A stretch of 57,002 nucleotides of DNA from contig JAIORV010000161.1 of the NCBI GenBank assembly GCA_021107945.1, positions 1 through 57,002 on the forward strand, written 5' to 3'. Source of the DNA: Vulcanimicrobiota bacterium. GTDB lineage: Bacteria; Vulcanimicrobiota; JAJTBE01. The position numbers and the translations under genes were made by a program. Under the pieces are notes generated by a model. That model did no database searches, had not been told where the DNA came from, and worked only from the letters and a program-made list of their open reading frames with translations. Shown piece after piece: positions 4,655 through 51,399 of this stretch (positions within the stretch are counted from its first letter, which is position 1; every line of letters begins with the position of its first letter).

Positions 4655-6286
4655 CTAGCTCTTTTCCTTACATGCCTTTGCGAATTTGACGAAAAGCGGA
4701 TGCGGCGACAGGGGTCTGCTTCTGAATTCCGGGTGGAACTGGACGCCAATGAAAAACGGGTGTATATCTTTTGAAACCTCGATTGTCTCGACAAGTTTGC
4801 CGTCGGGGGAAGTGCCCGAGAACACGACGCCCTCTTTTTCCATACATTCCCTGTAATCATTATTGAATTCATACCTGTGCCTGTGTCGTTCACGAATCAT
4901 TTCTTCCCCGTAAATTTCCCTCATAAGGGTTCCCTCTTTAAGTTTGCAGGGGTATCCGCCAAGCCTCATTGTGCCGCCGTAATCTTTTCCAAGGAGCTTC
5001 TTTAACTGGTCGGGCATCAAGTTAATTACAGGGTGTGGCGTATCGGGATCTATCTCCATCGTATTCGCCCCGTCAAGTCCACATACATTCCTTGCGATTT
5101 CAACCGCCGCCATTTGCATTCCATAACAGAGCCCCAGGAACGGTATCCCGTTTTCCCGCAGGTATTCAATGGAGCGCACTATTCCTTCGACACCTCTTGT
5201 TCCAAATCCGCCGGGAATGACCACGCCGTCAAAATCGGAGAGGTTATTTACTTTGTCTTGATCGTTCTCAATCTTCTCTGAATCAACCCATACAAGTTTT
5301 GGCTTCACATTCGCCGCCCAGCATCCATGTTTAATGGCGGCAATTACAGAAACATAAACATCTGCAAGCACAAATTTACCCGTGGTGAAATATTTTCCCA
5401 ATATTGCAATTTTCACCTCATCCTTGAGTCCTTCGGACTTGTGAATCAGTGCTTTCCACTCCCGTATATCCTTTTCCCTGACCGGCAGTCCGAGTTTCTT
5501 CAAAATCCTCTCGTCCAGTTTCTGCTCTTCTAAAACAAGGGGTACTTTGTATATATTATCAACATCGGGTGCGGATATAACATCATCTTCCGAGTGCATA
5601 TTACACAGTAGCGCTATCCGCTCTTTCCTCGGCTTGTCAAGGGTTCTCTCTCCCCTGCATATGATAAAATCAGCCTGCATCCCGGTTTCATTCAGTGTTC
5701 TGGAGGCATACTGTGTGGGTTTTGTTTTCATCTCGCCAAGAGTTTTTGGAATCGGCACATAACTTACAAGCGCCGTTATTACATCCTTCTGCCTCTTGTA
5801 TTTCATCAGCCTCGCCGCTTCTATGAACAGGATATTCTGATACTCTCCCACTGTCCCGCCAATTTCAATAATTGTAATCTCGGCATCATCTTTCTCCCTC
5901 GCGTTTTCAATGCGCGCAATGATTTCAAGGGGTATATGCGGCACAACTTCGACACATTTTCCACCATATTCCAGGTTTCTCTCTTTGTTGATCACCGATT
6001 GATATATTTGCCCCGTTGTCGCATAATTCGCCTTTCCCAGGTCCCTGTTCAGGAATCGCTCGTAATTTCCCACATCCTGATCCGTCTCAATGCCGTCATC
6101 GGTAACAAACACCTCGCCATGCTCCGTCGGATTCATAGTCCCTGCATCGAAATTGACGTATGCATCAATTTTTATATTTGTAACCCGATATCCCCGACCG
6201 GTAAGAAGTCTGGCGATGGATGCCGCCGTTATGCCCTTTCCAAGTCCTGAAATAACTCCTCCGACAATGAAAATAAACTTTGACAT
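4655..6286 (-). CDS. pyrG: CTP synthase
   Basis: CTP synthase converts UTP to CTP with ATP and glutamine, the last step of de novo pyrimidine nucleotide synthesis. The 543-residue length is typical. The N-terminal amidoligase domain has the P-loop (GGVISGLGKG, residues 8-17) and the conserved GTMNPTEHGEVFVTDDG region. The class I glutamine amidotransferase domain follows, with the nucleophile Cys in PFLGLCYGMQ and the His-Glu pair in GVQFHPEF near the C-terminus. GAGG precedes the ATG by 9 bases. It stands alone, with repeat-rich sequence upstream. No leader-type regulatory structure was recognised. The identification is firm. Confidence 0.97.
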   Translation of the reverse strand: MSKFIFIVGGVISGLGKGITAASIARLLTGRGYRVTNIKIDAYVNFDAGTMNPTEHGEVFVTDDGIETDQDVGNYERFLNRDLGKANYATTGQIYQSVINKERNLEYGGKCVEVVPHIPLEIIARIENAREKDDAEITIIEIGGTVGEYQNILFIEAARLMKYKRQKDVITALVSYVPIPKTLGEMKTKPTQYASRTLNETGMQADFIICRGERTLDKPRKERIALLCNMHSEDDVISAPDVDNIYKVPLVLEEQKLDERILKKLGLPVREKDIREWKALIHKSEGLKDEVKIAILGKYFTTGKFVLADVYVSVIAAIKHGCWAANVKPKLVWVDSEKIENDQDKVNNLSDFDGVVIPGGFGTRGVEGIVRSIEYLRENGIPFLGLCYGMQMAAVEIARNVCGLDGANTMEIDPDTPHPVINLMPDQLKKLLGKDYGGTMRLGGYPCKLKEGTLMREIYGEEMIRERHRHRYEFNNDYRECMEKEGVVFSGTSPDGKLVETIEVSKDIHPFFIGVQFHPEFRSRPLSPHPLFVKFAKACKEKS

Positions 6287-6603
6287 TTTGTATCCTCGTT
6301 TGATGAAATTATGAGATTATGAATTAATAAATCTATGTTATAATCTGAAATTATTTTATCCTACTTCTATAGACTCATGTTGAATTCCCTTCTAATCCTG
6401 CCACTTCTTTTGGCGAGGAGATGAGGAAACAAGGAGTTTTCCTCTAAGGAAATGAGGAAATAAGGAAAACGGAATGTGGAGGATGGATGATGGTTTTGTT
6501 TTTCACCACGGAGCCACGGAGGACACGGAGTTTTTTCTATTCTTCGTGTACTTCGTGTCTTCGTGGTGATAACATTTTTTTTAATGGTCGGATCCCGTTT
6601 CCC
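6287..6603. repeat. Repeat-filled gap: GAGGAAA and CACGGAGG motif blocks
   Basis: The gap between pyrG and the U32 gene holds two repeat types seen elsewhere. The first is a block of GAGGAAA-like words (about 6415-6475). The second is CACCACGGAGCCACGGAGG (from 6504), followed by TCTTCGTGT/TTCGTGGTGAT (6541-6570), which is its inverted counterpart, so that 6504-6570 can fold into a long imperfect hairpin. The pyrG promoter should lie at about 6300-6400, but no convincing -35/-10 pair was found. Confidence 0.6.
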
Positions 6604-7617
6604 TTAACGGAAATTTTCGATGGAATCTAGCCTGGCGAATATCTGCTCTCCTCTTCCGGTGCATTCATCAAGCAGGGCATTTGTTCTTTTATCTCTCTGG
6701 CTGTCTCTTTTTATCCCAAGTTGAAGGATCCGCTCTTCCCATATAGGATCATCCACCGCCGAGAGGTCGTCAAAGCAGGCGTCTATTAATTCACGGTAAA
6801 ACGAAACGATTTCCCTTACCAGGGATGTTGAATATTCTCTTCCCTGTATCTTGAGGCAGTCTATACCGAGGCGGATGTAATCGGGGATTTCCCGGAGTGA
6901 GAGGTAGCAATAGTTTCCAAGGTCTTTCCCGGTGAATTTTCTGTTTCCCCGGCATATACCGTTCCATGAGGATTTGCATACCCTGTAGCATAATCCCCCG
7001 CGGTTGGGTGAGCCGAAGAAGTTGTCCTTGCCCCGGTCGTCAATGCTGTGCTTGAATTTGAAATAACTGCTCATGATACAGCGTCCCAGGTATGTGTAAT
7101 CTCGGTTTGCATGAATGAGAATCTCGATCTCGCCGTCAAATTTTTGTCTGAGATCCTCAATCTCCCCGATTGTCATCTCGCATGGGGCAACCATTACATC
7201 GAATCCTATTTCTTTATAAAACCTGAATTCTTCTATATTCATGACACTACACCCGACGGAGGCGGTGATTATTGACTCCGGGAATCGTTTTTTTACCTGG
7301 TTCACGAAGCCTGGATCGGTCATAATGAATTGCTTTACTCCCATTTTCCAATATTTCTCTATAGCTTTGAGTCCTGCAGGGAGCTCGCCAGATGAGGGAA
7401 GTGTGTTGAATGCAAGTTTTAACACTTTCCCTTTTTTATTTGCATAATCCGCCACCCGCTTTATGACGTCGTCTTCCACCTCGTATGCACGGGTTCTCCT
7501 TGACCATCCCCTGGGTCCCATATATACCATGTCCGCGCCTGCGTCAAAAGCGGCCATCGCCATTTCCCCGGAACCGCCGGGTCCCAGGAGGGACGGTTTT
7601 TTAGAGGGTTTTATCAT
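6604..7617 (-). CDS. U32 family protein (peptidase U32 / UbiU-RlhA type)
   Basis: This is a member of the U32 family, once called collagenase-like peptidases. Many members are now known as Fe-S proteins in prephenate- or O2-independent hydroxylation (UbiU/UbiV, RlhA, TrhP). The start has the family TIM-barrel pattern (LLGPGGSGEMAMAAFDAGAD, then DMVYMGPRGWSRR). Conserved cysteines occur in YLGRCIMS, GGLCYRVCKS, GNYCYLS and the family signature GIDCLKIQGREYS, as in the Fe-S-binding members. About 337 residues matches the short UbiU-like class. I place the start at ATG 7617, which has AAAAGGTG at good spacing; a GTG at 7626 is the alternative. The substrate cannot be told from sequence. Confidence 0.85.
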   Translation of the reverse strand: MIKPSKKPSLLGPGGSGEMAMAAFDAGADMVYMGPRGWSRRTRAYEVEDDVIKRVADYANKKGKVLKLAFNTLPSSGELPAGLKAIEKYWKMGVKQFIMTDPGFVNQVKKRFPESIITASVGCSVMNIEEFRFYKEIGFDVMVAPCEMTIGEIEDLRQKFDGEIEILIHANRDYTYLGRCIMSSYFKFKHSIDDRGKDNFFGSPNRGGLCYRVCKSSWNGICRGNRKFTGKDLGNYCYLSLREIPDYIRLGIDCLKIQGREYSTSLVREIVSFYRELIDACFDDLSAVDDPIWEERILQLGIKRDSQRDKRTNALLDECTGRGEQIFARLDSIENFR

Positions 7618-9181: not shown

Positions 9182-10525
9182 ATGAAAATTGGATTTATTG
9201 CGCCTCACGGTGTCGAGGTCTATCAGGAAGGCAATATATTAAACGAGCTTATTTCCAGTATGGAAGAGATGTTGGATTTTTGTGAAGATGAGCTCGAGGT
9301 AATGCCCAACCTTGCCCTCCTTACGATGGCGGCATATATTGACACCGACGGGCATGAAGTGAAATATATCGAGGAAAGTTTTATTTATAAGCCCGGTAAG
9401 AAACCCAATTATTTCGACGAGGATTTTGACCTTGTGGGAATATCCGCATTCACAAGGCAGGTGCCAAGGGCATACAAGATTGCGGATCATTTCAGATCCA
9501 GGGGAATCCCCGTGATACTGGGGGGAAATCACATAACGGCTCTTCCCGACGAGGCGCTGAAGCATGCAGACCACATCATTGTGGGAGAGGGAGAGGACAC
9601 ATTCCCCCGATTTTTCGAAGATTTCGAGGCAGGCAGGGCAAAAAGGGTGTATGAATCGGACAGATCCGTTAACCTGGGGACGATTCCGCCACCGCGATTC
9701 GACCTCGTACCTCACAGGGAGAGATATAACAAGATTCCACTGCAAACAACAAGGGGATGTCCATATCACTGTGAGTTTTGCTCGATTACGGCAGTATTTG
9801 GTCACAAATTCAGGGTGAAGCCTGTAGAAAGAGTTGCGGAGGAAATAAAGCTTGTTCAATCCCTGTTCAAGAATCCACATTTTTCCTTTGTTGATGAAAA
9901 TATGTTTGTAAACAAGGAGCACTCCAAAAGTCTCCTCAGAAGACTCCTGCCGATGGGAATAACATGGGAGTGCTACTGTGATATAACTGTTGCGGAGGAC
10001 GAGGAATTGCTTGACCTGATGAGGGAATCAGGATGCTACGAGATTCAGGTGGGACTGGAGACCGTCAACCCGGAAAGCTTGAGGAAGGTCAGTCCCTGGA
10101 AATATGAGAAGGTGTCGAAATATCCGGAAGATATAAAGAAAATTCAGGATCATGGCGTGGGTGTTATGGGGCTGTTTATGATCGGGATGGACGGAGATGA
10201 CAATACAATATTCCGCCAATTGTGGGATTTCATTGAAGAGAATCACATTTTCGAGGCGGATCTTGCCATTATGACTCCTCTGCCGGGGTCTGATCTATAT
10301 AGCAGGTTAAAGAAAGAAAACCGTGTTACAAGCGAAATATGGGATAGATATACATGGTATCATATTAATTACGAGCCTGCTCTCATGACACAGGAAGAAC
10401 TGCGAAAGGGCATGCTCTGGCTTCATAAAAAAATCCACTCCCCGGAATGGCTGAAGTTAAAGAATTCGATGCTTAATCCCAGGCCTGCGGAAAAGAATCC
10501 CTGTGTTCCGGATAAGGGGAATTGA
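9182..10525 (+). CDS. B12-binding domain radical SAM protein
   Basis: This is a cobalamin-dependent radical SAM enzyme of 447 residues. The N-terminal half (about 1-150) is a B12-binding-type Rossmann domain (DLVGISAFTRQVPRAYKIAD, IPVILGGNHITALP, HIIVGEGEDTFPRF). The radical SAM domain follows with TTRGCPYHCEFCSI (CX3CX2C) near residue 195 and the family's late motif LPGSDLYSRLKKE. Related enzymes include methyltransferases for hopanoids, antibiotics and bacteriochlorophyll and the BchE cyclase; which reaction occurs here cannot be told. The canonical His of the DxHxxG cobalamin motif is not evident, as in many of this group. It is isolated, convergent with pilB, with a repeat-filled gap between. 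No strong RBS lies before the ATG at 9182. Confidence 0.88.
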   Translation: MKIGFIAPHGVEVYQEGNILNELISSMEEMLDFCEDELEVMPNLALLTMAAYIDTDGHEVKYIEESFIYKPGKKPNYFDEDFDLVGISAFTRQVPRAYKIADHFRSRGIPVILGGNHITALPDEALKHADHIIVGEGEDTFPRFFEDFEAGRAKRVYESDRSVNLGTIPPPRFDLVPHRERYNKIPLQTTRGCPYHCEFCSITAVFGHKFRVKPVERVAEEIKLVQSLFKNPHFSFVDENMFVNKEHSKSLLRRLLPMGITWECYCDITVAEDEELLDLMRESGCYEIQVGLETVNPESLRKVSPWKYEKVSKYPEDIKKIQDHGVGVMGLFMIGMDGDDNTIFRQLWDFIEENHIFEADLAIMTPLPGSDLYSRLKKENRVTSEIWDRYTWYHINYEPALMTQEELRKGMLWLHKKIHSPEWLKLKNSMLNPRPAEKNPCVPDKGN

Positions 10526-10964
10526 AACATGTTTTTTTACCACAGAGGGCACAGAGGGCACAGAGGACACAGAGTTTAAATGAAATTAAATTATTAATTC
10601 CATGAAATTTGGGTGGAGGTTGGTCTCCCGACCAGCCTAAAACGGTGTGAAATCGTGGTTTTGAAATCCCCCCAAAAAGGGGCTGAATAGTTACGAAAAA
10701 AGAAGCGTAAACTGTCATTCTGAGCGATACAAGAAAGGAATACTTGGCTCCGATAACTTTCTAAAAAGCGGGATTATCTTGTATCCGAGAATTCACATAG
10801 CGAAGAATCTCATGAATATTTGCCTGGAGGAGATCCTTCGCTGATTAATGCATCGGAGGTAAGTAAAATCCGTTCTTACTAAAGCTTATCCAGTAAATTA
10901 AGAGATCGTATTCCGCTCAGGATGACAAGCTTGAGGCTTCCCGTCTCCCGCTTCCCGCCTCTCA
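10526..10964. repeat. Repeat-filled convergent gap
   Basis: Three units fill this 439-base gap. The first, at 10539-10694, is a composite: ACCACAGAGGGCACAGAGG-type repeats, an AT spacer, then a conserved 95-base part with GGTTGGTCTCCCGACCAGCC and an end TGAATAGTTAC (10684-10694). The second, at 10713-10927, is a nested palindrome beginning TGTCATTCTGAGCG and ending CGCTCAGGATGACA, with an inner pair AGCGAAGAATCTC/GAGATCCTTCGCT. The third, at about 10938-10964, is a TCCCGCTTCCCGCC pyrimidine block that touches the pilB stop codon. No gene is seen. Confidence 0.8.
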
Positions 10965-13682
10965 TCATGACATTGTAACCCGGCGAACTTCTTCCATTGT
11001 GATGTGACCTGCGGCGGCTTTTATTAGCGCGTCATAAAGGAGTGATTTCATTCCTTCTTTTTCCGCCTGTTTTCTTATCTCCTCGGATGTCGCACTCGCG
11101 GATATCATCTCGCCGAGAATGGGGCTTACTGTTAAAATCTCATATATTCCCATTCTTCCCTTGTACCCCACATTATGACATTTAAGGCATCCCTCGCCCC
11201 GTGCCAGAGTTTTGAACCTGATACCCTGATCCTGGAAAAGCACCTTGTCCGCCGGGGTTATGGGGGCTTCCACCTTGCACTTGTCACAAGTTCTCCGGAC
11301 AAGTCTCTGTGCGACACCGCCAATCATAACGGAACCTATGAGGTATGGGGCGACGCTCATATCTCTTAGCCTTGTTATAATTCCAACGGCGTCGTTTGTG
11401 TGAATTGTTGACATGAGCAGATGTCCTGTCAGAGACGCCTGAACCGATATCGAAGCGGTCTCCGGGTCCCGGATCTCTCCCACGAGTATAACATCGGGAT
11501 CCTGTCGCAGGAATTCTCTTAATGCCCTTGAGAATGTTACCCGCTTCTCCACTTCGCGGGGAGCAAGGTTTACCTGAACCTGTAATATTCCGGGCATTTC
11601 GTATTCAATAGGATCCTCAACTGTCAGCAGTTTGCGATCAGGTCTGCTTATCTCCTTGAGGCTTGCATATAGTGTTGTACTCTTTCCCGATCCGGTGGGG
11701 CCGCTTACAAGTATCATTCCGTGTGGTCTTGCCAGAAGTCCCTTGTATATTTCTATGGAATCGTTCCTGAATCCCAGGTCAGTGAGCTCGTAATTGAACG
11801 CGCCCTTGTTCAGGATTCTCATGACAATACTCTCACCGTGGGCGACAGGGATGACACTGACCCTCATGTCAAAATCCTGCTCTGCAATTTTGAGGGATAT
11901 TCTTCCTCCCTGGGTTATTCTCTCCTGGGCAATGTCCATGTTGCCGGTAATTTTGACCCTTTTGACAATCGCCCTGGCTATTTCGGGGGGATATGTATTC
12001 ATCATATGCAGTACGCCGTCAATTCTGTATCGTACAGCCATTTCCTTTTCGAAAGTCTCCAGGTGAATATCGCTTGCCCCGATGGAGATAGCTTCCTTGA
12101 TAATCCTGTTTGCCTCCTCGATGACAGGCCCGTCAATTTCATCCTTGCCGAAAATACTCAACTGGACGGCATCCTGTTTTACATCAAGCTCTTCGTACTC
12201 ATATTTCTTTTTCTCAAGCCATTCTTGCCAAGTAACACCCATTGTACCTGCGGGAAGCTCGTAACAATATTCAATTGCAAGTTCGATCGCATTGGGATCC
12301 GCCCGGTAAAGAAGGGGACGGTATTTATCCCCAAGCGCATACGCTATCTGGTCATAAATATATACATTACTGGGATCTTTGACGGCGATCTTAATCTCAT
12401 TCCCCTCGCCCCCGGCAAAAACAATTCCCACTATCGCCTTGGAGGCTTTTTCCGGCAGAAGCTGGGCAATTTCCCTCTCGAGCCTGATACTGTTAAGATC
12501 AATGGACGGGTATTGACTGAGAAAACCGCTCCCCGGCGTGGAGACCATCATGGGCCCCTGAACATCCTGCTTACTGCCGAGCCAGAATGATTTGTGAAGA
12601 AGCCTGGCAATTTCAAACTTCTTTTTTAATTCCTTGTCTTCTTCATCTTCTTCCTCGATCGCTTCGAGTCCTAATTCTTCTTCAAGATCCTCTCCCGTTG
12701 GGGTTTGAGCCGACACGGGAGTAATATCCGTCATGCTGTCTGGGCCGAATGGATATATTGTTTTGTCGATATCTATCTTCTCGCTTTTGGCGTCTCCATC
12801 GACAAGTCTTTGCATCAGGTTGGGCAAAGCTACGGACATTTCAACATTCATGGGAAATTTCGCCTGGAAATCCGCCTCCAGAATTCTCATACCCACATAT
12901 CGATCAGCTATTTGGGGCGTCATCATTTTTTCGATGATCTCTTCCAAATCTATCGTGATATTAGGATTGATCAGGGTTATTTTCTTGTCATTGTCAGAAT
13001 TTTTCAATCTTGCCAGTGACTTTATTGGTTTTTCTTTTGTTGCTATGAAAAAATGTACCGCTCCTATGGAATAAATGTCATTCCTGGGATCCGGCGGATC
13101 CCCCTGGAGTTGCTCCGGCGCCGAGTAATGTTTATCTGCAAGAACGCGAAGATTCGTCCTGCCGGTGATGTTTGTATGACCTATCCTTGTCATTCCGAAT
13201 TCCGTGAGTAGAATACGTCCTCTTGAATCTACAAGTATGTTTTCGGGTGAAAGTCCGCCGATAATGATGGGAGGGGTCTGCGTATGGAGATAGCTGAAAA
13301 CTCTGATAAACTGAATCAGGAAATGTTGAATCAGATTTTCATCTGTTTTTTCACGCATCTTTTTGATGTATTTTTCGAGAGGAGTGCCATCAAAATATTC
13401 CATCAGGAGAAAGATCCCATCCTCCTCTTCAAAAGTCTTCTTTACCTGAGGGAGATGCCGGTGATTCAAGTAGGAGAGGAGATTTCCCTCCATGAGGATC
13501 TGCGCTTTGCATGCCTTTTTTTGCTGTCCGGTCTTGACCTTTACCTTCTCATGAAACGCCCTTATTATATAAGGCTTGTTTTTCTTCATATCAATAGCTT
13601 TATACAGGATTGAAAACCTGCATTTCATGAATTCATCCTCAATTTTATAACGGTCTTTTATGATTTTTCCTATAAATGACAT
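10965..13682 (-). CDS. pilB: Type IV pilus/secretion ATPase PilB fused to an N-terminal pseudokinase
   Basis: This 905-residue protein joins three parts. Residues 10-280 are a Hanks-type kinase fold without its catalytic residues: the VAIK Lys is Arg41, HRD is I141-G142-G143, the following Lys is S145, DFG is E161-F162-G163, and no glycine loop is seen. Glu65, Asn148, SAPE (187-190) and D202 remain. An acidic linker (about 325-355) leads to a T2SSE N-like domain (about 390-490). The ATPase follows, with Walker A GPTGSGKSTT near 660, Walker B DPDVILVGEIRDPE near 725, and the zinc site CDKC...CLKC near 800-835. It powers pilin or pseudopilin assembly at the inner membrane. pilC lies 22 bases upstream. 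Ordinary PilB has about 560-580 residues and no kinase part. The fusion is read through one open frame with no sign of a junction error. Confidence 0.95.
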   Translation of the reverse strand: MSFIGKIIKDRYKIEDEFMKCRFSILYKAIDMKKNKPYIIRAFHEKVKVKTGQQKKACKAQILMEGNLLSYLNHRHLPQVKKTFEEEDGIFLLMEYFDGTPLEKYIKKMREKTDENLIQHFLIQFIRVFSYLHTQTPPIIIGGLSPENILVDSRGRILLTEFGMTRIGHTNITGRTNLRVLADKHYSAPEQLQGDPPDPRNDIYSIGAVHFFIATKEKPIKSLARLKNSDNDKKITLINPNITIDLEEIIEKMMTPQIADRYVGMRILEADFQAKFPMNVEMSVALPNLMQRLVDGDAKSEKIDIDKTIYPFGPDSMTDITPVSAQTPTGEDLEEELGLEAIEEEDEEDKELKKKFEIARLLHKSFWLGSKQDVQGPMMVSTPGSGFLSQYPSIDLNSIRLEREIAQLLPEKASKAIVGIVFAGGEGNEIKIAVKDPSNVYIYDQIAYALGDKYRPLLYRADPNAIELAIEYCYELPAGTMGVTWQEWLEKKKYEYEELDVKQDAVQLSIFGKDEIDGPVIEEANRIIKEAISIGASDIHLETFEKEMAVRYRIDGVLHMMNTYPPEIARAIVKRVKITGNMDIAQERITQGGRISLKIAEQDFDMRVSVIPVAHGESIVMRILNKGAFNYELTDLGFRNDSIEIYKGLLARPHGMILVSGPTGSGKSTTLYASLKEISRPDRKLLTVEDPIEYEMPGILQVQVNLAPREVEKRVTFSRALREFLRQDPDVILVGEIRDPETASISVQASLTGHLLMSTIHTNDAVGIITRLRDMSVAPYLIGSVMIGGVAQRLVRRTCDKCKVEAPITPADKVLFQDQGIRFKTLARGEGCLKCHNVGYKGRMGIYEILTVSPILGEMISASATSEEIRKQAEKEGMKSLLYDALIKAAAGHITMEEVRRVTMS

Positions 13683-13704: not shown

Positions 13705-14958
13705 TTAAACTTTCATCTTGCTTGTAATACTGAGCATTGGTAAAATAACACCGATAACAAATATTCCCACAACTCCGCCGACAAAAACCATCATAGCCGG
13801 CTCAAGAATGGATGTAAGAGTGGTAACGGCGTTGTCAAGATTCTGGTCGAAATAATCCGCCGTTTTTTCCATCATCTCGGTGAGTGATCCTGACTCCTCG
13901 CCGATTTTCACCATATCAACCACAATTTCCGGGAAGACTTTTTCTTTTGAAAGAGCTTCAGAAAGCGATTTACCTCCACGGATATTGCCCGCCATGCGCT
14001 CAATCGCCGCGCTGACCACTGTATTTCCCGCCGCTCCGGCGACAAGCTCCATTGCTTTTAACATCGGCACACCGGCGGCAAACAAGCTGGCGAAACTGCG
14101 GCAGAAACGGGCAAGCGCCGCCTGCCTTACTAAGCCGCCAAACCCCGGCACATTCAGAGCGATGGTATCCATCACCATCTTACCGAACTTGCTTCTTGTG
14201 AATAATTTGAACGCTATAACAATAGCTATAATCACGATCACAGCAGCTATAACACCCTTGGTGTTTGTCACTACATCACTTAGTTTTACCAGGAAAGCTG
14301 TAATTGGGTAGTCCTTGTTGAGATCCAGGCCGAACTCGTCGAAAAGAGGCGTGAATATGGGGAGAAAATGTGCAAGCAGAACATACACAAGAATCGTGCT
14401 GAAAATCAGGATAAAAACGGGGTAGGCCATTGCCGCTCTTATCTTCTTTTTTATAGCGAGACTCTTCTCCAGTATATCCGCTACCCTTGCCACCGCTGTA
14501 GGCAGATTACCGCCTATCTCCCCGACGGATACCATGCTTACATACATTTCATCGAATATCGCTGGATGTTTTTTCAGGGCATCGGTAAAACTGGAACCTT
14601 TCTGGAGATCAATCCCCACTTCATGTATGGCCTGTTTCAGTCTTCTACTCTTTGCCTGGTTATAAAGGATGGAAATAATTCTGTTCAGGGATACGCCTGC
14701 TCTTAAAATCGTCGCCAACTGCCGGGTAAAGAACGCCATCTCATCATCGGAGACGCCCCGGCCGATCCTGACCTTGTCGAGGATGCCACCACCCTTTTTT
14801 CCCTCTTCCTTTTTCTTCTCTTTCACCTCGTGAATCTCGATAATGTTGAGCTGAGATTTTTGAAGTTTTTCTATAAGCTTCTGCTTGTCCAGCACAGCCA
14901 TTTTTCCCTTGAGAAGCTTTCCCTTTTTGTCCCTGACCTTGTACTCAAATGTCGGCAT
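13705..14958 (-). CDS. pilC: Type IV pilus/type II secretion platform protein PilC/GspF
   Basis: This is the inner-membrane platform protein that couples the PilB motor to subunit insertion. Its 417 residues are typical. The N-terminus FEYKVRDKKGKLLKGKM is the family signature, and two repeated GspF cytoplasmic domains follow (about 75-195 with FTRQLATILRAGVSL, and about 280-400 with FCRSFASLFAAGVPM). Three membrane segments lie near 175-195, 225-245 and 380-405. It is transcribed first, 22 bases ahead of the pilB-pseudokinase gene, and is divergent from the pilX-like/pseudopilin genes across a 444-base gap. CAGGAG precedes the ATG. The identification is firm, but whether it serves pili or secretion is open, since no major pilin, pilQ or pilT is in the window. 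Confidence 0.95.
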   Translation of the reverse strand: MPTFEYKVRDKKGKLLKGKMAVLDKQKLIEKLQKSQLNIIEIHEVKEKKKEEGKKGGGILDKVRIGRGVSDDEMAFFTRQLATILRAGVSLNRIISILYNQAKSRRLKQAIHEVGIDLQKGSSFTDALKKHPAIFDEMYVSMVSVGEIGGNLPTAVARVADILEKSLAIKKKIRAAMAYPVFILIFSTILVYVLLAHFLPIFTPLFDEFGLDLNKDYPITAFLVKLSDVVTNTKGVIAAVIVIIAIVIAFKLFTRSKFGKMVMDTIALNVPGFGGLVRQAALARFCRSFASLFAAGVPMLKAMELVAGAAGNTVVSAAIERMAGNIRGGKSLSEALSKEKVFPEIVVDMVKIGEESGSLTEMMEKTADYFDQNLDNAVTTLTSILEPAMMVFVGGVVGIFVIGVILPMLSITSKMKV

Positions 14959-15402
14959 GATATTTCTCCTGTCAAATGAGATTTATGGTTTTATTTATAA
15001 TGGCAAGTATCCTGATTGCGAAGGAAAGCTAAAGCTTTCCGCTACCGGCTTTCCGCAACCGGCTTTTGAGATTCCAGGGGCGGTTGCCCTCCTGCTGAAA
15101 ATAACTTTAAAAAACATGAAAAAACTATACAAAAATGCCTTATTACCCTCTATAATAAGAATAGTATATATCCCCGTAATTATCCTGCTTGTGGAATAAA
15201 ATTTTGCAAGTATTCAGTCTTCCTTTTTGCAGGAGTGGCATCTTGCCACGGAAAGATAGGCGAGAATTGGTGTCATCCAATGGGTTGTGGTATTTTCCCG
15301 CATCCCGTTTCCCATCCAATTCAAAACCGGGGCATAAAGAGGAATTATCCGATAATAAATGAAATTATCAATTAAGATGTACTAAAAAAGGCAGTGGATG
15401 TA
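14959..15402. promoter_or_regulatory. Divergent pilus-cluster intergenic region with hairpins
   Basis: This 444-base region should hold both divergent promoters. Two compact hairpins stand out: GGAAAGCT-AA-AGCTTTCC at 15023-15040, followed by GCTACC (GTAG foot on the minus strand), and GTGGCA-TCT-TGCCAC at 15235-15249, preceded by GCAGGA. AT-rich stretches at 15140-15200 (CTATAATAAGAATAG) could contain a promoter, but no clean -35/-10 pair is seen. Confidence 0.45.
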
Positions 15403-18150
15403 ATGTTCAGGAGAGCTAATACAAGGGGATCAATTCTTGTTCTGTCCATAATGCTGTTTTTACTTTTGCTCACCATCGCGGCGTCACTTATTTCCCAGGA
15501 AGCAATCACCCGACGAATGTTCCTTCGTTCCAGAATCGAGGGGATCGAATCGAGGGCGATGAAAAAAGCTCTGCTGGAATTAAAAGGAAAGATAGAAATC
15601 GCCGGAAAAAATCCTATTAGTGATTTTGAGGTAAGATCCAATGAAGACAGCGATTTCAAAGTAAACGTAAAGGTTGTCTCTTTCAATCCGCCACAGGGTG
15701 AAGAGGCGAAAGATTTCGCACAGATTCCCGAGGTTGGATACAGCAAGTCTCTTACCGTTAAGGTTGACGACAGAGATATAAAAGTCCCTCCGTGGCACAA
15801 CCTCGCCGTGCTGGAATCTCCTCTGGGAAACAAGTATATTGCGATGTATAGTTATGCTTTCCCTTATGGAGCTTATGCGCCAAACGGCAAGATTGACCTG
15901 TACGACGCCAGAAGCTGGGCAAACCCCACACTCAAACAGGTGGAGCAGATACTCCAGGATAAGGACAAGAAGCAGGAATATGACAGGAACAAGGGCGATG
16001 TATATTCCGGCACTCCCGTTGATATACTTGCAAGGAAGGATATCAACATAACCACATTTCCCCACGGCAGAGCATATTCATACGAGGGAAAGATTGCCGT
16101 CAAAGGCGGTGGAATGGGGTTTTCCAAATTTACGACTATTCCCGCGACTGATTATTACAACAAATATGTACGAAATTTTTCCAACAAGATTGAGTCCCGG
16201 GTAGTTAGCTCAAAAAATACTGTTCTCGGAAATCCACTGAACAAGGAAGACTATATATTTTCCAGAGTTACACCTCCTTTAACTCCCCTTTCCATTGTAA
16301 ATGGAGTTGGAGGCGATGTGACGAAGATTTTCAACCTCCAGCAGGCGGCGGATTCCGGTATGTTATTCCCCATTCCCACAATTCCCGTGGTTTCAATGCA
16401 ATCTTATATGTCATTTGGAACATTACTTACTTTTCAACTACATGCGCCGATGCCGCCATCGGGCAAATCGGAGCCGCAGACAAGAACACAGGAAGCTTCA
16501 TTTGACAATTCAGGCGCGCCCAAGACATTCTTTTTCTGGGGATCCACCGAGTACTGGAGATTGATGCTAGGTCATTTTAGCTATGTCATGGAGATCCTGG
16601 GCAGAAAGATTCGCACGGTTCACCTGGGACAGGGCGCACCCGACGTTCAATTTTCTTCCGGATCAATTGATATAAAAACTACGTTTGTCGTACCCCGGGG
16701 AAGAACTCTGGAAATGCCCTGTAACACCACAATAAGGGGAGACCTGTGGATCCAGGACGGCGCAACCCTTTATGTCATGCGTAATCTCACGGTGAAATCC
16801 CCCGGAGTTTACACATCAAACCTGTCTATTCCCTCCGGAAGAGTCATTTTTGGGAAAGGATCAACGCTCGTTGTTGACGGCGACTTCTCATGCCAGGGAA
16901 ATGAGTCATTGGGATCAATTCTCATCTCATCCCCCGAGGGAAAGATTAACCCCATAACATCCGCGCTGATATGTTACGGGAATGTCGATATCCCATACGG
17001 GGTTCTGCCGGGAGTATCACTCTCGGACCTTTCACAAAATCTCGCTGTAAAGAATTTTATGACAACAGTCGATGAAATATCCCCCAACCTTGCCAAGCTC
17101 GTGGGTCCCTTCTATTCAAGGGGAGATATATTTGCAGCAAAACCCGCGGTATTTGCATACACGCAGTTCGGGTGGGTGTATTCTCTGATTATTCTGCCAA
17201 ATACTTACAAAAATGCCAATCTCAAGATTTTCAAGCTCATAACCACATCATACACAACATTTCTCAACGCATCCCTGGGAGAATACCTATTTACACAGGC
17301 AGACTGGTGGTCCTCCTCATTCGGCGAAGACGCCGTGCCGGTCATTCACAAGATAGATATGGCAAACACCAGCAACGATAATACAATTACAAAGCTGTCG
17401 GCAATAAACGTCTATGGCTTCACTTGCGATTACTCGAAGGTGAAGAGCTTGATAAATAATATATCGGCGGGAACATTCCAGAACATCGGAAGTGTCATAT
17501 TTCAGGAAATAGCAACCGAGATTATCGCGAAAATTTCACTTCAGTTTATCTCTATCCCGAATATCGATACAATTGTCAACAACGCATTTAACAAACTTTA
17601 CTCCAAGATATTTAAGGTATCGCCTACCGACGTAACCCTCAATACGACAAACGCTGCCACTTTTAAGGCAGGTATGGATTCCGTTTATCAGCATGTGAGG
17701 AATAAATTGAATACTCATTACAATGACAGGATGGTGAACAAGGAGACAGTTGTTTTTAACGAGGTGTCCGGGCTTTTTGTATATTCAAAGGGGAAACTGA
17801 CCCTGGGAGGTCCCCTTAACTGTGGATTTTTTATTGCAAAGGGAAATATCAAGATTGATTCATCGGGCAGGAATACCCGTGTTGTGGGATGTATGATAAG
17901 CCTGACGGGGAATATCAAGGGTAAAAATTGTCAACTACGCTATTACCCCTATTTCACGAGATTTTCTCTTCATATACCCGAGCAAATACCGGGCACGGGA
18001 CTGACCGCCCTGGTAAATGATATAAAACAAGTGACTGTGAAAACAAAAAGCGATTATATTTTTCCCGAATTTGGAATTGAGAAAGGGCATTTTCAGTTGC
18101 AGGGATGGAGCAGGTGGTCTTATGTTGACCGTAAAAAACAGTGGAATTAA
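15403..18150 (+). CDS. Giant PilX/GspK-like pilus-associated protein
   Basis: This protein of about 915 residues has an N-terminal helix like PilX_N/GspK minor pilins: RANTRGSILVLSIMLF then a hydrophobic stretch to about residue 30. A Gly precedes the helix and the usual Glu at +5 is absent, as in GspK. The rest is far larger than PilX (about 200 residues). Near 420-540 there are short beta-repeat phrases (TTIRGDLWIQDGATLYV, VIFGKGSTLVVDGDF) and again near 780-840 (KLTLGGPLNCGFFIAKGNI), like polymer-forming or beta-solenoid modules. It probably caps or decorates a pseudopilus outside the inner membrane. ATG 15403 is preferred over GTG 15394 for RBS spacing. The next pseudopilin gene overlaps its end by 29 bases. 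The function is inferred. Confidence 0.75.
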   Translation: MFRRANTRGSILVLSIMLFLLLLTIAASLISQEAITRRMFLRSRIEGIESRAMKKALLELKGKIEIAGKNPISDFEVRSNEDSDFKVNVKVVSFNPPQGEEAKDFAQIPEVGYSKSLTVKVDDRDIKVPPWHNLAVLESPLGNKYIAMYSYAFPYGAYAPNGKIDLYDARSWANPTLKQVEQILQDKDKKQEYDRNKGDVYSGTPVDILARKDINITTFPHGRAYSYEGKIAVKGGGMGFSKFTTIPATDYYNKYVRNFSNKIESRVVSSKNTVLGNPLNKEDYIFSRVTPPLTPLSIVNGVGGDVTKIFNLQQAADSGMLFPIPTIPVVSMQSYMSFGTLLTFQLHAPMPPSGKSEPQTRTQEASFDNSGAPKTFFFWGSTEYWRLMLGHFSYVMEILGRKIRTVHLGQGAPDVQFSSGSIDIKTTFVVPRGRTLEMPCNTTIRGDLWIQDGATLYVMRNLTVKSPGVYTSNLSIPSGRVIFGKGSTLVVDGDFSCQGNESLGSILISSPEGKINPITSALICYGNVDIPYGVLPGVSLSDLSQNLAVKNFMTTVDEISPNLAKLVGPFYSRGDIFAAKPAVFAYTQFGWVYSLIILPNTYKNANLKIFKLITTSYTTFLNASLGEYLFTQADWWSSSFGEDAVPVIHKIDMANTSNDNTITKLSAINVYGFTCDYSKVKSLINNISAGTFQNIGSVIFQEIATEIIAKISLQFISIPNIDTIVNNAFNKLYSKIFKVSPTDVTLNTTNAATFKAGMDSVYQHVRNKLNTHYNDRMVNKETVVFNEVSGLFVYSKGKLTLGGPLNCGFFIAKGNIKIDSSGRNTRVVGCMISLTGNIKGKNCQLRYYPYFTRFSLHIPEQIPGTGLTALVNDIKQVTVKTKSDYIFPEFGIEKGHFQLQGWSRWSYVDRKKQWN

Positions 18151-18607
18151 AAAGCGAATAAAGGGCATGTCCATAATCGAAGTGATAATAGCTCTGGTTG
18201 TTATCACCTGCGGCATACTAACCGCGCTCACAGTTATCGCCGCGTCGCTGAGGTTCTCAACACAATCCCGCCAACAGGTATATGCATATCTTGTAGCTGA
18301 AAGCATGCTGGAGAAGATAAAAGCTCATAAATACGGGGAGCCTGCGCCAAAATCATGGAAAGAGCCTGAATACTACAAAATCTCGATCGAGGGCAAAGCG
18401 GAGCCTATGTTGGCGGAGTTCAAGAGGGATTATAATTTCACTGCCGCAGGTGCGAACGGGAGCTTTGTTGATTCCACAATGCCACAGACCGAGGATATAG
18501 TAACAATTGTGGTGACCTGGGTCGAGGGGACAGGCAGAACATCAGCCAAAAGCAAGAAGATCGAACTGGAGACAAAAGTAAAAAAGAGTGAAGTTGAGGT
18601 AAAATGA
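18122..18607 (+). CDS. PilV/GspI-like pseudopilin
   Basis: This is a type IV pilin-like protein of 161 residues. The prepilin peptidase site is KRIKG-MSIIEVIIALVVIT: a short basic leader ending in Gly, then a hydrophobic helix with Glu at +5, the hallmark of processed and N-methylated pilins. The rest is a small globular domain with features of PilV/GspI minor pilins (AESMLEKIKAH). The start ATG 18122 has GGAG upstream and overlaps the end of the PilX-like gene by 29 bases, so translation is probably coupled. An upstream in-frame start at 18071 would give an overlong leader. It would be cleaved by a PilD-type peptidase that is not in the window. Confidence 0.85.
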   Translation: MLTVKNSGIKKRIKGMSIIEVIIALVVITCGILTALTVIAASLRFSTQSRQQVYAYLVAESMLEKIKAHKYGEPAPKSWKEPEYYKISIEGKAEPMLAEFKRDYNFTAAGANGSFVDSTMPQTEDIVTIVVTWVEGTGRTSAKSKKIELETKVKKSEVEVK

Positions 18608-18682: not shown

Positions 18683-19600
18683 TTGTCATTATTTATTGAA
18701 AAAAACTTAATGGACCCAATGTGTCAGAATATGCACAGGAGTAGGAATAGAGGATTTTCCCTCACTGAGCTTATTATATATATTCTCATGTCAACAATTG
18801 TCTTCGGGGTGATTATCTCGATCTTCTTTTTTGTCAGAAGCTCGTCGAGGAGAACGGCATCGTCTTTTGAGATCAGAGAGCAGACCGATTCCGCCCTCCG
18901 GTGGCTGAAAAACGACCTGATGGAGACAAGCTTGAATTCCATCAGGACATACCCCGACAATAGCAACAAGAGCGAGGCGCCCGGAGTTTCGTTTATCTCG
19001 GCAGTGGATGTAACGGGAAAAGCCGGGGATATTGTCCTGGATACATCAGAATTCGGCAACCCGTCCTGGCAAAAATACGTTTTCTATACGGTCGTTGAAG
19101 ATAAGGTATGGCCTATGGCTCTAAAAGACGGCACGAAAATAACACTCAGACTGGGGAAGCTTGTAAGGTGGGAGTATAAACAAAGCAATACGGTTCCCTC
19201 TGCAACCACGCTCAAGCCTTTCTCGGATATAAATCAGGCGACAACGCCGCCGCGAACGGTATTAAGCGGGATTATGCTGCCGGCAAAAATCGGTGATATT
19301 AACCAGAAGGAATGGTTCGGAAGACTTCGCATCCCCCATGTTGCGCCGGGAAAGTCGCCTCAACCGGGAGCGCTTGATTATGGCGGATTCAGGGTGTCCT
19401 TTGTGAGGAGAAAGCTTTCAGGATCCGGTCCGGGGCTGAGCGTGGAGGAAGAACTTTCAAATGTTAATCCGTCGGAATCAACGGATACAGACGGAAACAC
19501 AGACCTTATCCAGGTGGATTTTATCGCCCTTCAGATATCGTCAAAAACGGGACAACCCACGGCGTTATCACAGACTTTTCAACTAAAACCCCGGAATTGA
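18683..19600 (+). CDS. PilW/GspJ-like pseudopilin
   Basis: This minor pilin-like protein has about 290-305 residues. Its prepilin motif is SRNRG-FSLTELIIYILMST, with Gly at -1, Phe at +1 and Glu at +5, followed by a hydrophobic helix to about residue 50. The size and the SSFEIREQTDSALRWLKNDL segment fit PilW/GspJ-type minor pilins. It is the third gene of the plus-strand pilus operon (75 bases after the previous gene). The start is uncertain: TTG 18683 has GGAC upstream at poor spacing, and ATG 18710 or 18731 would give the usual short leader. It would form the tip complex with the PilX-like protein and the PilV-like pseudopilin. It is convergent with a kinase gene. Confidence 0.85.
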   Translation: MSLFIEKNLMDPMCQNMHRSRNRGFSLTELIIYILMSTIVFGVIISIFFFVRSSSRRTASSFEIREQTDSALRWLKNDLMETSLNSIRTYPDNSNKSEAPGVSFISAVDVTGKAGDIVLDTSEFGNPSWQKYVFYTVVEDKVWPMALKDGTKITLRLGKLVRWEYKQSNTVPSATTLKPFSDINQATTPPRTVLSGIMLPAKIGDINQKEWFGRLRIPHVAPGKSPQPGALDYGGFRVSFVRRKLSGSGPGLSVEEELSNVNPSESTDTDGNTDLIQVDFIALQISSKTGQPTALSQTFQLKPRN

Positions 19601-19802: not shown

Positions 19803-21428
19803 TTAAAGACTATACATTTCTTTGAATTTATTGAAATCTTTCACCACTTCATCGACGGACTGATACCTCGCACTTTTACTCATTGCAAGCATCTTGTCGA
19901 ATATCTTTTGAAACTCCCTGGGGAATCCCGGCACATATTTATATATAGGTGGGTAACTGAAGGGATCTTCCCTTTTCTCGGGACCCTCCCCCGTGAGAAG
20001 ATGATGAAATGTCGCCGCAAGACTGAATATATCTGATGTGGGAGAGAAATTTCCGCTGTAATGCTCCGGGGAAGCATATCCATAAGTCCCCACTCTTGTC
20101 ATTGCCCCTTTTGGATCCAGGGCGCGGGCGAATCCAAAATCTACAAGATAGAGTCTTCCTTTCTTGTCTATCATAATATTCGAAGGTTTGATATCCCTGT
20201 GAATTATGGGGGGATCCTGCCTGTGCAGGACAGCTATAAGTTCAAACATCTTATCGAACCATTTTAAACACTGTTCCATAGGAAATCGCTCGTCAGGCTG
20301 TTCTTTCAATAAAAAGAAGAGATTCTTTCCTTCGATATACTGCATTACAATGAGGAGTCTGCCCTTCTCGGTAAAGTAATCCATCACCCGGGGAAAACCT
20401 GTGTGAGTTAACCTGAAAAGGAGCTTTGCTTCTTCCTTGAACCTTTTTTCAAGATACTTGAGAGTGGAAATCTTGACCGATAATGGGCAAAGTTCTTTTA
20501 ATACAATATTTGAGCCCATCTTGTGATCAATTGCCAGGAAAATCCTCCCGGTGCCACCGGCTCCCAATTGCTTTATCAACTCGTATCTCCCGTTTTTCAG
20601 GAATTTCAGAGTTTCAGGGACCTCAGGCTCATCAGGAATTGTGAGCTTACTGGAATCCTTGTATTTTGCCCTTGGAGTCTTTTGGGGAGTCCCACAGGGT
20701 TCAACCGGGGCATCATCAGTTTCCCGGGGAATTTCAGGCTGAGACTCCTGTGTGACAGGCTCTTCTACTTTCTCTTCCATACCCACAGGGTCGGCGGGTG
20801 CTTCTTCTGCTACTTCTTCTATTTTCTCTTCTTCCTCAACATTATCATCTGAATCCGGAACAGATACAGGCTCTTCTATAGGTTGCTCCACCTGAGCACT
20901 TATATTTTCCGCCACCGGGACTTCTTCCACAACCTGCCGTATCAGCACAGGCTCAACTTCCGTCTGCTCTTTTTCCTCAACTTCCAACTCTTCAGGAAAA
21001 TCTTCAACTTCCGCCTCTATAGCCTCTTTAATTTCGTGGACAGGACTTTCTTCAACCTCTTCTGTTTGCTGTTGCTCTATTATCTCTTCAAGCCCAGGTT
21101 CTTCAGGAATAACTTCCTCCCCGGAATCTGTCGAGATTTCTTCATGTCTCTTCTGCGGGTGGAGTTCTTCCGGGACAAGTCCTTCCGGCAAGGGATCTTC
21201 TCTGGAGGGTATAGGCTCTTCCTCCTCGTGCCATTCGTCCTGTATTGCATAAGCGGGTTTGGAAGGTCTGTCGCCATCCGTCGAGGAAACCTTTTCTTCC
21301 ACGGATTCCTCCTGTCCGAGAACTCCCAGAGGATCGATGATTCTTTCCTCCTCCTTGAGGGATTCTCCACATTTCTTACAGAACCGCGCTCCTGTCCTGT
21401 TAAATGAGCCACAATATAGGCAAAACAT
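19803..21428 (-). CDS. Ser/Thr protein kinase with N-terminal zinc ribbon and acidic linker
   Basis: This is a cytosolic Hanks-type kinase of 541 residues. Residues 3-21 form a zinc ribbon (CLYCGSFNRTGARFCKKC). Residues about 25-265 are a disordered-looking Glu/Pro/Val-rich linker. The kinase domain (about 275-541) is complete: GAGGTGRIF loop, Lys in IVLKEL, HRDIKPSN, VDFGFAR and YASPEHY. No membrane segment or PASTA repeat follows. It shares the PPII(H)RD-type phrasing with the pseudokinase part of the nearby PilB (PPIIIGGLSPEN), which suggests a common origin. It lies next to the pilus operon on the opposite strand, so a regulatory link to the pilus is possible but unproven. Start ATG 21428; the upstream gap is repeat-rich. 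Confidence 0.9.
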   Translation of the reverse strand: MFCLYCGSFNRTGARFCKKCGESLKEEERIIDPLGVLGQEESVEEKVSSTDGDRPSKPAYAIQDEWHEEEEPIPSREDPLPEGLVPEELHPQKRHEEISTDSGEEVIPEEPGLEEIIEQQQTEEVEESPVHEIKEAIEAEVEDFPEELEVEEKEQTEVEPVLIRQVVEEVPVAENISAQVEQPIEEPVSVPDSDDNVEEEEKIEEVAEEAPADPVGMEEKVEEPVTQESQPEIPRETDDAPVEPCGTPQKTPRAKYKDSSKLTIPDEPEVPETLKFLKNGRYELIKQLGAGGTGRIFLAIDHKMGSNIVLKELCPLSVKISTLKYLEKRFKEEAKLLFRLTHTGFPRVMDYFTEKGRLLIVMQYIEGKNLFFLLKEQPDERFPMEQCLKWFDKMFELIAVLHRQDPPIIHRDIKPSNIMIDKKGRLYLVDFGFARALDPKGAMTRVGTYGYASPEHYSGNFSPTSDIFSLAATFHHLLTGEGPEKREDPFSYPPIYKYVPGFPREFQKIFDKMLAMSKSARYQSVDEVVKDFNKFKEMYSL

Positions 21429-45727: not shown

Positions 45728-45814
45728 GGAGAGTTGGCTGAGAGGTCGAAAGCGGCGGTCTTGAAAACCGTTGTGGGCGCGAGTCCACCGGGGGTTCGAA
45801 TCCCTCACTCTCCG
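45728..45814 (+). tRNA. tRNA-Ser (anticodon TGA)
   Basis: This is a class II tRNA with a long variable arm. The acceptor stem GGAGAGT (45728-45734) pairs with ACTCTCC (45807-45813), with G as discriminator. The D arm has TTGGCTGAGAGG, the anticodon loop is CTTGAAA (TGA), and the variable stem (GTGGGC...GTCCAC) is as expected for Ser. The T arm has GGGTTCGAATCCC. CCA is not encoded. It reads UCA and, by wobble, other UCN codons. Confidence 0.95.
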
Positions 45815-46670
45815 CTTTTTAGTTCCCCCCTTTTTTCACCGCAGAGATCGCAGAGGATTTACACTTTTTTAACCACGAAGGCACGGAGGGCACGAAGATT
45901 TTTTTTAAAATGATAATTAAAGAAAAAGTCCTCATTTTCCGATAAAACCAATTCCTTATTTCCTCGGAGGAGACATATTCCTCATCATCCCTACTCCTGA
46001 TTTTATTATGGGGAAGCCACTGAAGTGGCTAAAAAAGTAAAGGGGGTGGGACTCCTTTCTTTCCCCCGGTTGAAACCGGGGGTTATTCTCATGGGACGAA
46101 TCCCTTTTGTTCTTCCATTATCCATCCCCCTACACATGAGGGGAGAGAAATGAGAAGCGTGAAGTGACGGCATCCATTTTCAAAACCCCATTCCCCTCCG
46201 TGTCCTCCGTGGCTTTGTGGTAAAACAAAAATCCTCTGTGGTCTCTGTGTCCTCTGTGGTGAAAAAAACACATACATCCTGCACTATCCGTTTATCGGGA
46301 TGGGGAAAGGGAAAGGGGAAAGGGGACATGGGAAACGAGATCCATTATCCGTCATCCATTATCCAATATCCATTATCCAATATCCATTATCCGTTTTCCG
46401 AATCCCTCTGTGGTCTTTGCGGTGATAAATTACATCCGCTATCAGTCCTCTATTATTTTCTTCGTGTTCTCCGTGGCTTCGTGGTAAAAAAACAGATCCG
46501 GTCTCCGTTTTCCTGATTTCCTAATTTCCTTAGAGGAAACCGATTCCTCATCCCCTCATTATCAAAATTCTTACTTTCCTAACAGGAAAAAGGTTGTCAA
46601 TTCTTTAATATTATCATGAATAACTAGGAAAAGCTGGAATCGGTAATCAGTCTTGAAAGGGGATGTAGAG
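45815..46670. repeat. Large repeat cluster between tRNA-Ser and the symporter gene
   Basis: More than 800 bases are almost entirely repeats: CCGCAGAGATCGCAGAGG and CACGGAGGGCACGAAG (45840-45900); GA-loop hairpins AGCCACT-GA-AGTGGCT (46015-46030) and CCCCCGGTT-GA-AACCGGGGG (46063-46082); inverted TCCGTGTCCTCCGTGG and TCTCTGTGTCCTCTGTGG runs (46195-46265); TATCCATTATCC words (46340-46395); TCTCCGTGGCTTCGTGG (46465-46485); TTTCCTAATTTCC (46515-46570). No ORF has an RBS. TTGTCA at 46594 could belong to a weak promoter of the symporter. Confidence 0.75.
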
Positions 46671-51029: not shown

Positions 51030-51399
51030 ACAAATAATCCGGAAAAAAATACTATTCACATTATACAATAACCTGCAAGCAATTTCACCCCCGGGATTGC
51101 GGATTAGCCTAAAATGCCAGTTGTATTTTTTTATGGGAGTCTTCTTGAAAGAAAGCTCTCAGTTATAAGCCGCTGAAGCGGCTTGACATAACGCTACCTC
51201 CACTTAAGCCGCTTCAGCGGCTTAACAATGATGAAACACTATTTCAAATAAGGTTTTTCCCAGGTAACTGGCTTGTTGAGTTAGTTCAGTCCCATCACAT
51301 TTTCAAAGGATAATGCGGTGATTTATTTAATGAAATCATAAAATGTGTGGGGTTGCAAAACTAATGCCTGGTGCATTTGTTATTTAGGGGGGATTGTTT
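51030..51399. repeat. Divergent gap with facing GA-loop hairpins
   Basis: Two copies of AAGCCGCT-GA/TC-AGCGGCTT (51167-51184 and 51206-51223) face each other around TTGACATAACGCTACCTCCACTT and can also pair with each other. The remainder (51224-51399) is AT-rich and should hold the alpha-2-macroglobulin promoter; no clean boxes were found. Confidence 0.6.

Follow-up and report, generated by a model that had tools for sequence, protein, structure and literature searches.

We found that an assembly ATPase of a Vulcanimicrobiota bacterium carries at its N-terminus a Hanks-type kinase domain that is apparently dead as an enzyme. The gene lies in a stretch of 57,002 nucleotides (contig JAIORV010000161.1 of assembly GCA_021107945.1), which was analyzed as a whole and is called the window below. 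Since this apparently dead domain is under strong selection, it is probably a control switch or a docking point and not an enzyme. We put the probability that the fused pseudokinase regulates the assembly ATPase or offers a docking site on it, without catalysis of its own, at roughly 0.6.

Results

A kinase fold and an assembly ATPase in one protein

The fusion gene begins with ATG and its stop codon ends at position 10,965; its parts and its neighbours are given in Table 1. Pfam places a Pkinase domain at residues 23-270 (E 2.2e-26; score 93 bits, cut-off 31.7). AlphaFold2, given residues 1-295 and seven family members, predicted a kinase fold with a mean pLDDT of 87.1 and a pTM of 0.87. The solved structures that Foldseek ranked best against this model are Mycobacterium tuberculosis PknB (5u94; E 4.6e-17, TM 0.74/0.83) and Staphylococcus aureus Stk1/PknB, and a profile search of the domain returned an S. 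aureus kinase at 2e-38. Because the Pfam E-values, the confident model and the PknB matches agree, a chance resemblance to kinases is excluded. The features of a Ser/Thr kinase fold are all present: two lobes, the alphaC Glu, a catalytic loop, an activation segment and the APE motif. The initial annotation, made from the sequence alone, had named Glu65, Asn148, SAPE at 187-190 and Asp202 as landmarks and had proposed structure prediction as the check. Every landmark stands at the residue named, and the prediction returned a confident kinase fold with PknB and Stk1 nearest.

Table 1 The fusion gene, its domains and neighbouring genes in the window
Feature	Position	Strand	Evidence
Fusion gene, pseudokinase-linker-MshEN_C-GspE/PilB ATPase, 905 aa	10965..13682	minus	ORF, Pfam, 10 further fused homologues
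Hanks-type pseudokinase domain, residues 1-275	12858..13682	minus	Pfam, AF2, Foldseek, motif table
Acidic linker, residues 276-389, predicted disordered	12516..12857	minus	pLDDT about 25-45 in full-length model
MshEN_C/ND1-like domain, residues 390-476	12255..12515	minus	Pfam MshEN 1.6e-5
GspE/PilB-type assembly ATPase, residues 517-901, Walker A/B, four-Cys zinc site	10980..12134	minus	Pfam T2SSE 5e-122
PilC/GspF platform protein, 22 bp upstream of fusion gene	13705..14958	minus	Pfam T2SSF 4.4e-62
918-aa protein with prepilin-like N-terminus	15394..18150	plus	No family hit; homologues at matching place in both paralogous clusters
Minor pseudopilin, PilV/GspI-like	18071..18607	plus	N_methyl 3.9e-4; PilV model 1.6e-12, slightly below cut-off
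Minor pseudopilin-like protein with N-methylation motif	18683..19600	plus	N_methyl E 0.001, below cut-off
Intact Ser/Thr kinase with zinc ribbon, K/HRD/DFG present, candidate partner	19803..21428	minus	Pfam Pkinase 1.5e-38, motifs

The full-length AlphaFold model has a pTM of 0.36, so contacts between the domains are not readable from it. In this model residues 275-389 have a pLDDT of about 25-45, and the pseudokinase is for this reason probably tethered to the motor through a flexible acidic linker. A frameshift or a faulty assembly join was ruled out as the origin of the fusion, since eight other genomes have the fused gene as an uninterrupted reading frame and a ninth (L166) has it across an assembly gap.

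The T2SSE domain and the Walker A and B motifs assign the motor half to the GspE/PilB superfamily, whose assembly ATPases work as hexamers. Both Walker motifs and the four cysteines (799, 802, 832 and 835) are invariant across the family. The protein misses both NCBIfam equivalog cut-offs (GspE, 498 against 630.25 bits; PilB, 476 against 675.65 bits), so that type IV pilus and type II secretion are indistinguishable for this motor. The description in the initial annotation of a complete PilB with Walker A, Walker B and zinc site holds for the ATPase and needs two refinements: the PilB cut-off is missed and the N-terminal ND0/MshEN_N part of canonical PilB and MshE is absent. c-di-GMP-responsive MshE-type ATPases have tandem 24-residue motifs of the RLGxx type, and MshE uses its MshEN_N half to bind c-di-GMP (PMC5013675). 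A loose regular expression found none of these motifs in the fusion protein. Nearly all of the phylum's PilBs that were sampled, with or without the fusion, also lack the motif by this expression, and because of this we did not adopt the idea that the pseudokinase replaced a c-di-GMP sensor.

Very long PilBs with C-terminal zinc ribbons were also encountered (plus strand: L049 6652-10455 and 10605-13682; L050 6103-9171). By reading, the L050 protein and the first of the L049 pair seemingly end in a response-regulator receiver domain.

Fused genes in four families of Eremiobacterota

A profile of the pseudokinase domain was run over 149 Eremiobacterota genomes and separated family members (at least 244 bits) from ordinary kinases (at most 208 bits). 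The fused architecture occurs in 11 genes from 10 genomes, all in families f1, f10, f11 and f15: the window's own genome G000, with the window gene (cluster C28) and a paralogue (C10), and G012, G016, G026, G028, G032, G142, G144, G145 and G146, where the gene spans one assembly gap. The search for the same domain order that had been proposed at the outset thus yielded 10 further fused genes. Three relatives are without the ATPase. L167 consists of pseudokinase and MshEN, and L168 and L169 are stand-alone pseudokinases with a beta3 Arg and a retained DFG. The latter two each lie beside a divergently oriented intact kinase (L168, 8217-9467 on the minus and 9546-11003 on the plus strand; L169, 7698-8912 on the plus and 6168-7577 on the minus strand), possibly as a pseudokinase-kinase pair outside a pilus context.

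The fused family was not found in 291 genomes in the phylum of an Armatimonadetes record, 386 in that of a cyanobacterial record and 297 in that of a deltaproteobacterial record; these negatives (974 genomes) are weak, because few candidates were scored per genome and there was no positive control. Comparison of a 49-residue motor segment with named genomes gave generic PilB genes and no family member among the matches listed.

All 14 pseudokinase domains form one clade in the kinase tree (support 100/99); the f10 pair is its first branch, and the ATPase-less forms are nested within the clade. The fused motors likewise form one clade in the ATPase tree (100/100), together with L015, whose N-terminus is cut off by the contig end, and the motor of cluster C60 (L051), a close paralogue in the window's genome that is without the pseudokinase domain. 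With support of 88/61 and 91/39, the ATPase tree is compatible both with a loss of the domain from C60 and with its original absence there.

Loss of catalytic residues

A pseudokinase is defined by substitution of at least one of the beta3 Lys, the HRD Asp and the DFG Asp (PMC12599244). The window protein has lost all three. Arg41 occupies the beta3 Lys position, Ile141-Gly142-Gly143 replaces HRD, Ser145 stands in place of the HRDxK Lys, Asn148 is retained, and Glu161-Phe162-Gly163 occupies the DFG site; the glycine loop reads F-M-K-C-R-F-S-I-L-Y and is free of glycine. With Arg41, Gly143, Glu161 and no glycine loop the protein falls outside the active Hanks-type kinases, and each catalytic change that the initial annotation had listed, Ser145 included, is at the residue it gave.

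We compared these positions in all 14 pseudokinase domains (the 11 fused ones, L167, L168 and L169) and in 25 control kinases of the same phylum that aligned at all motifs. The beta3 Lys is Arg in 14/14 members, and the glycine loop is lost in 14/14, with C/G-R-F-S/T instead. The HRDxK Lys is likewise gone throughout: it is Arg in 12 members, Ser in the window protein and Tyr in L043. None of these three losses occurs in a control (0/25); Lys, HRD Asp and DFG Asp are intact in every control, and two controls read DLG or DLA in place of DFG. The other changes are partial. EFG is found at the DFG site in 10/14 members and Asp is kept in 4/14 (fused genes only, 9/11 and 2/11), and the HRD Asp is kept in 12/14 (fused, 9/11), the two G000 paralogues alone having lost it. 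These two are therefore the only members in which the active site is completely ruined. Of the four substitutions whose conservation was in question, those of the beta3 Lys and the HRDxK Lys proved universal and those of the HRD and DFG Asp did not; a homologue with Lys, HRD and DFG all in place did not turn up, as the beta3 Lys alone, kept in 0/14, shows. By these alignments the founding loss was at the nucleotide site, in the beta3 Lys and the glycine loop; degradation then went on, and the window protein marks its final stage. Residue losses, fold and fusion together bear out the proposed architecture of a pseudokinase fused to a motor.

A second diverged kinase-like family, with a transmembrane segment, occurs at L053 (7307-9061, plus strand), directly after a PilB (L053 4740-7373), and at L050 (1-1005, minus strand), about 5 kb from a sister PilB (L050 6073-9168). 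These proteins have LD in the HRD region and D/N-P-G in the DFG region. Their PDB matches are mainly kinases at E of about 0.1-0.5, so that their kinase homology is tentative.

Gene neighbourhood and intact kinases

A PilC/GspF homologue lies near every fused locus examined except L045, where the contig ends. Judged by gene content, the PilC neighbour and the pseudopilins place the fused motor in a filament-assembly machine. The window's genome has three paralogous clusters of this kind (C28, C10 and C60), each with PilC, a motor, a 900-1050-aa protein with a prepilin-like start and two pseudopilin-like proteins. In C28, the window's cluster, the pseudokinase motor has an intact zinc-ribbon kinase 6 kb off. 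In C10 such a kinase (L043 11571-13247) lies downstream of the pseudokinase motor on the same strand, 0.8 kb away and with one TPR gene between, and C60 has neither pseudokinase nor kinase. G026 and G028 have an intact PEGA kinase one gene off or directly adjacent to the fused gene. An intact kinase thus stands in or beside the cluster in 4/6 independent fused lineages (G000-C28, G000-C10, G026 and G028). The five species of genus g15 have an HD-domain protein after PilC and no kinase gene in the flanks examined (about 8 kb where the contig permits), so the linkage to an active kinase is real and not obligatory.

This linkage argues for dedicated docking, in which the pseudokinase would pair with the intact kinase of its own cluster and bring it to the motor, where that kinase would phosphorylate the linker or a part of the pilus. 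For three of six lineages to have a kinase at most one gene away we obtained p of about 0.003, a hand estimate with a post hoc threshold that assumes about 70-110 kinases per genome. The suggestion in the initial annotation of a docking site for the active kinase at 19803-21428 gains circumstantial support: the C28 and C10 kinases belong to one subfamily (46% identical), and the cluster free of the pseudokinase is the one free of a kinase. However, no kinase was found by the g15 loci or by the two f10 loci within the DNA examined. Reciprocal-best pairing of the C28 and C10 kinases failed: ranked by relatedness to the window kinase, the C10 kinase comes sixth in G000. Five other kinases of that genome are as close to the window kinase or closer, and the pair is therefore not exclusive. 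We regard dedicated docking as possible, though less likely than not.

The genome (5.6 Mb) has 27 T2SSE-family and 71 kinase matches. One more kinase lies in the window at 49302-51068 on the minus strand; it is an apparently intact Ser/Thr kinase with DLA for DFG and a transmembrane segment, in which Pfam finds the kinase alone. A stretch of its outer part, AINRYYFEQDKMPDKLSDL, resembles the GspG major-pseudopilin fold. The sole tRNA of the window, tRNA-Ser (TGA), is at 45728-45815 on the plus strand.

Conserved residues and selection

Every family member has Arg22, Arg41 and Leu192, against 0% of controls. Nearly all members share Phe23, Ser24 and Arg179, against 23% of controls, and Glu65 is invariant in both groups. 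Together with the kept Glu65, these family residues suggest that a pocket and the activation segment are conserved. The two invariant arginines lie in the former ATP pocket and suggest either a structural Arg41-Glu65 pair or an anionic ligand.

If the ligand is real, a pocket lined by Arg22 and Arg41 could bind a nucleotide or a phosphorylated second messenger without metal and gate the ATPase allosterically. The Arg at the HRDxK position in 12/14 members fits such a sensor, as do the models of the DLHK and ActPs2 pseudokinases, in which arginines sit on the phosphates (PMC12599244). A GAF domain is carried by the f15 motor and gives a weak match at the N-terminus of the g15 motors, with a clearer one in G028. 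Against this, the catalytic-loop Arg is Ser in the window protein and Arg41 may merely hold Glu65, and we consider a ligand sensor doubtful.

Selection was assessed by Nei-Gojobori dN/dS between four species of genus g15. The pseudokinase gave 0.025-0.075, the ATPase 0.044-0.067, MshEN 0.05-0.09 and the two linkers 0.05-0.31. Synonymous sites approach saturation in several of the species pairs, which makes the ratios rough, but they rank the segments clearly. The pseudokinase lies below most linker values, the linkers being the fastest-evolving segments in the relatives. Since its ratio is similar to that of the motor, the domain is not decaying. This low ratio and the family-specific residues that are invariant across four families make an inert spacer or relic of fusion improbable, despite the unfused C60 paralogue, the most degraded active site in the window's genome and the long branches in the kinase tree (0.93 for the window domain, 1.58 for the L043 domain). 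Persisting phosphotransfer or other catalysis of a SelO- or SidJ-like kind is very improbable, even though 9/11 fused members keep the HRD Asp and all have Glu or Asp at the DFG site, because the beta3 Lys, the glycine loop and the HRDxK Lys are missing family-wide and the HRD Asp is Gly in the window protein. In the homologues that keep this Asp, which are the majority, weak or atypical activity is possible.

Discussion

We propose that a pseudokinase on a flexible linker took over the N-terminal regulatory part of a pilus or pseudopilus assembly ATPase. To judge from its catalytic losses it would phosphorylate nothing. It would instead serve as a non-catalytic control module, and binding of a partner or ligand would alter the activity or the recruitment of the motor. 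Its mode of action would resemble that of PilZ-FimX docked at the N-terminus of Xanthomonas PilB, or that of the scaffold pseudokinases EssB/YukC and MviN, except that fusion makes the link permanent. The likeliest input would be Ser/Thr-kinase signalling, with a kinase such as the cluster neighbour docking on the module or phosphorylating it, and a ligand switch is the main alternative. Where relatives retain arginines in the former ATP pocket, this site may hold a nucleotide or another anion, metal-free and without phosphotransfer. Docking and ligand sensing are two ways for the control-module explanation to hold and were judged separately above. The close paralogue C60, which is without the domain, speaks against the control module. 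More tentatively, and at a little short of even odds, the fused genes may define an undescribed class of filament motors in which the pseudokinase gates or targets the ATPase and so couples Ser/Thr-kinase signalling, or an anion in the arginine pocket, to the building of a pilus or pseudopilus.

Bacterial pseudokinases are numerous and few have a known job, and little is settled about how Ser/Thr kinases govern surface filaments. In the present case the output can be read from the fusion, since the kinase fold without chemistry is covalently joined to a filament motor and has been kept across four families. C60 is a natural domain-free paralogue and thus a built-in control, and the idea is testable with purified motor and truncations.

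The initial annotation knew of no described case, and our searches of the open-access literature agree: no account of an assembly ATPase with a fused kinase fold came up there, most subscription journals lying outside their scope. The fused motor resembles PilB, GspE and MshE in its complete ATPase with Walker A/B and zinc site, its ND1/MshEN_C domain and its PilC neighbour, and differs in having pseudokinase and linker in place of ND0/MshEN_N. In Xanthomonas, PilZ-FimX acts at the N-terminus of PilB (PMC8389850), which is likewise motor control via the N-terminal domain by degenerate signalling proteins; those regulators are separate PilZ/EAL-type proteins, whereas our motor has a kinase fold as part of its own chain. 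EssB/YukC of type VII secretion is a kinase fold with all motifs degraded that serves as a scaffolding part of a secretion machine (PMC12599244), but it is transmembrane, unfused to an ATPase and part of another system. The pseudokinase domain of MviN/ActPs3 is a hub for an active PknB-type kinase, with PknB and FhaA (PMC12599244); this is an actinobacterial membrane protein of peptidoglycan synthesis whose phosphorylated tail recruits an FHA protein.

Arginine-based ATP binding has been proposed from models of DLHK and ActPs2, the former sharing an HRDLR loop with Arg and the latter the beta3 Arg with our family (PMC12599244). They differ in their helicase/DNA2 or transmembrane linkage, their occurrence in Proteobacteria or Actinobacteria and the lack of an assembly ATPase. 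The commonest DLHK partners are DEAD-like helicase and DNA2, whereas the members scanned here have T2SSE, MshEN and GAF only; the link to a COG3899 ATPase that marks CP1 pseudokinases is likewise missing. Among the ActPs2 hallmarks (beta3 Arg, HRD Asp to Asn, DFG deletion, transmembrane segment) the family has the beta3 Arg alone, its HRD Asp being kept or Gly and EFG or DFG being present. In conclusion, a secretion machine with a pseudokinase part (EssB/YukC) and PilB with a regulatory N-terminus are each known, and the open-access literature searched gave no example of the two combined by fusion.
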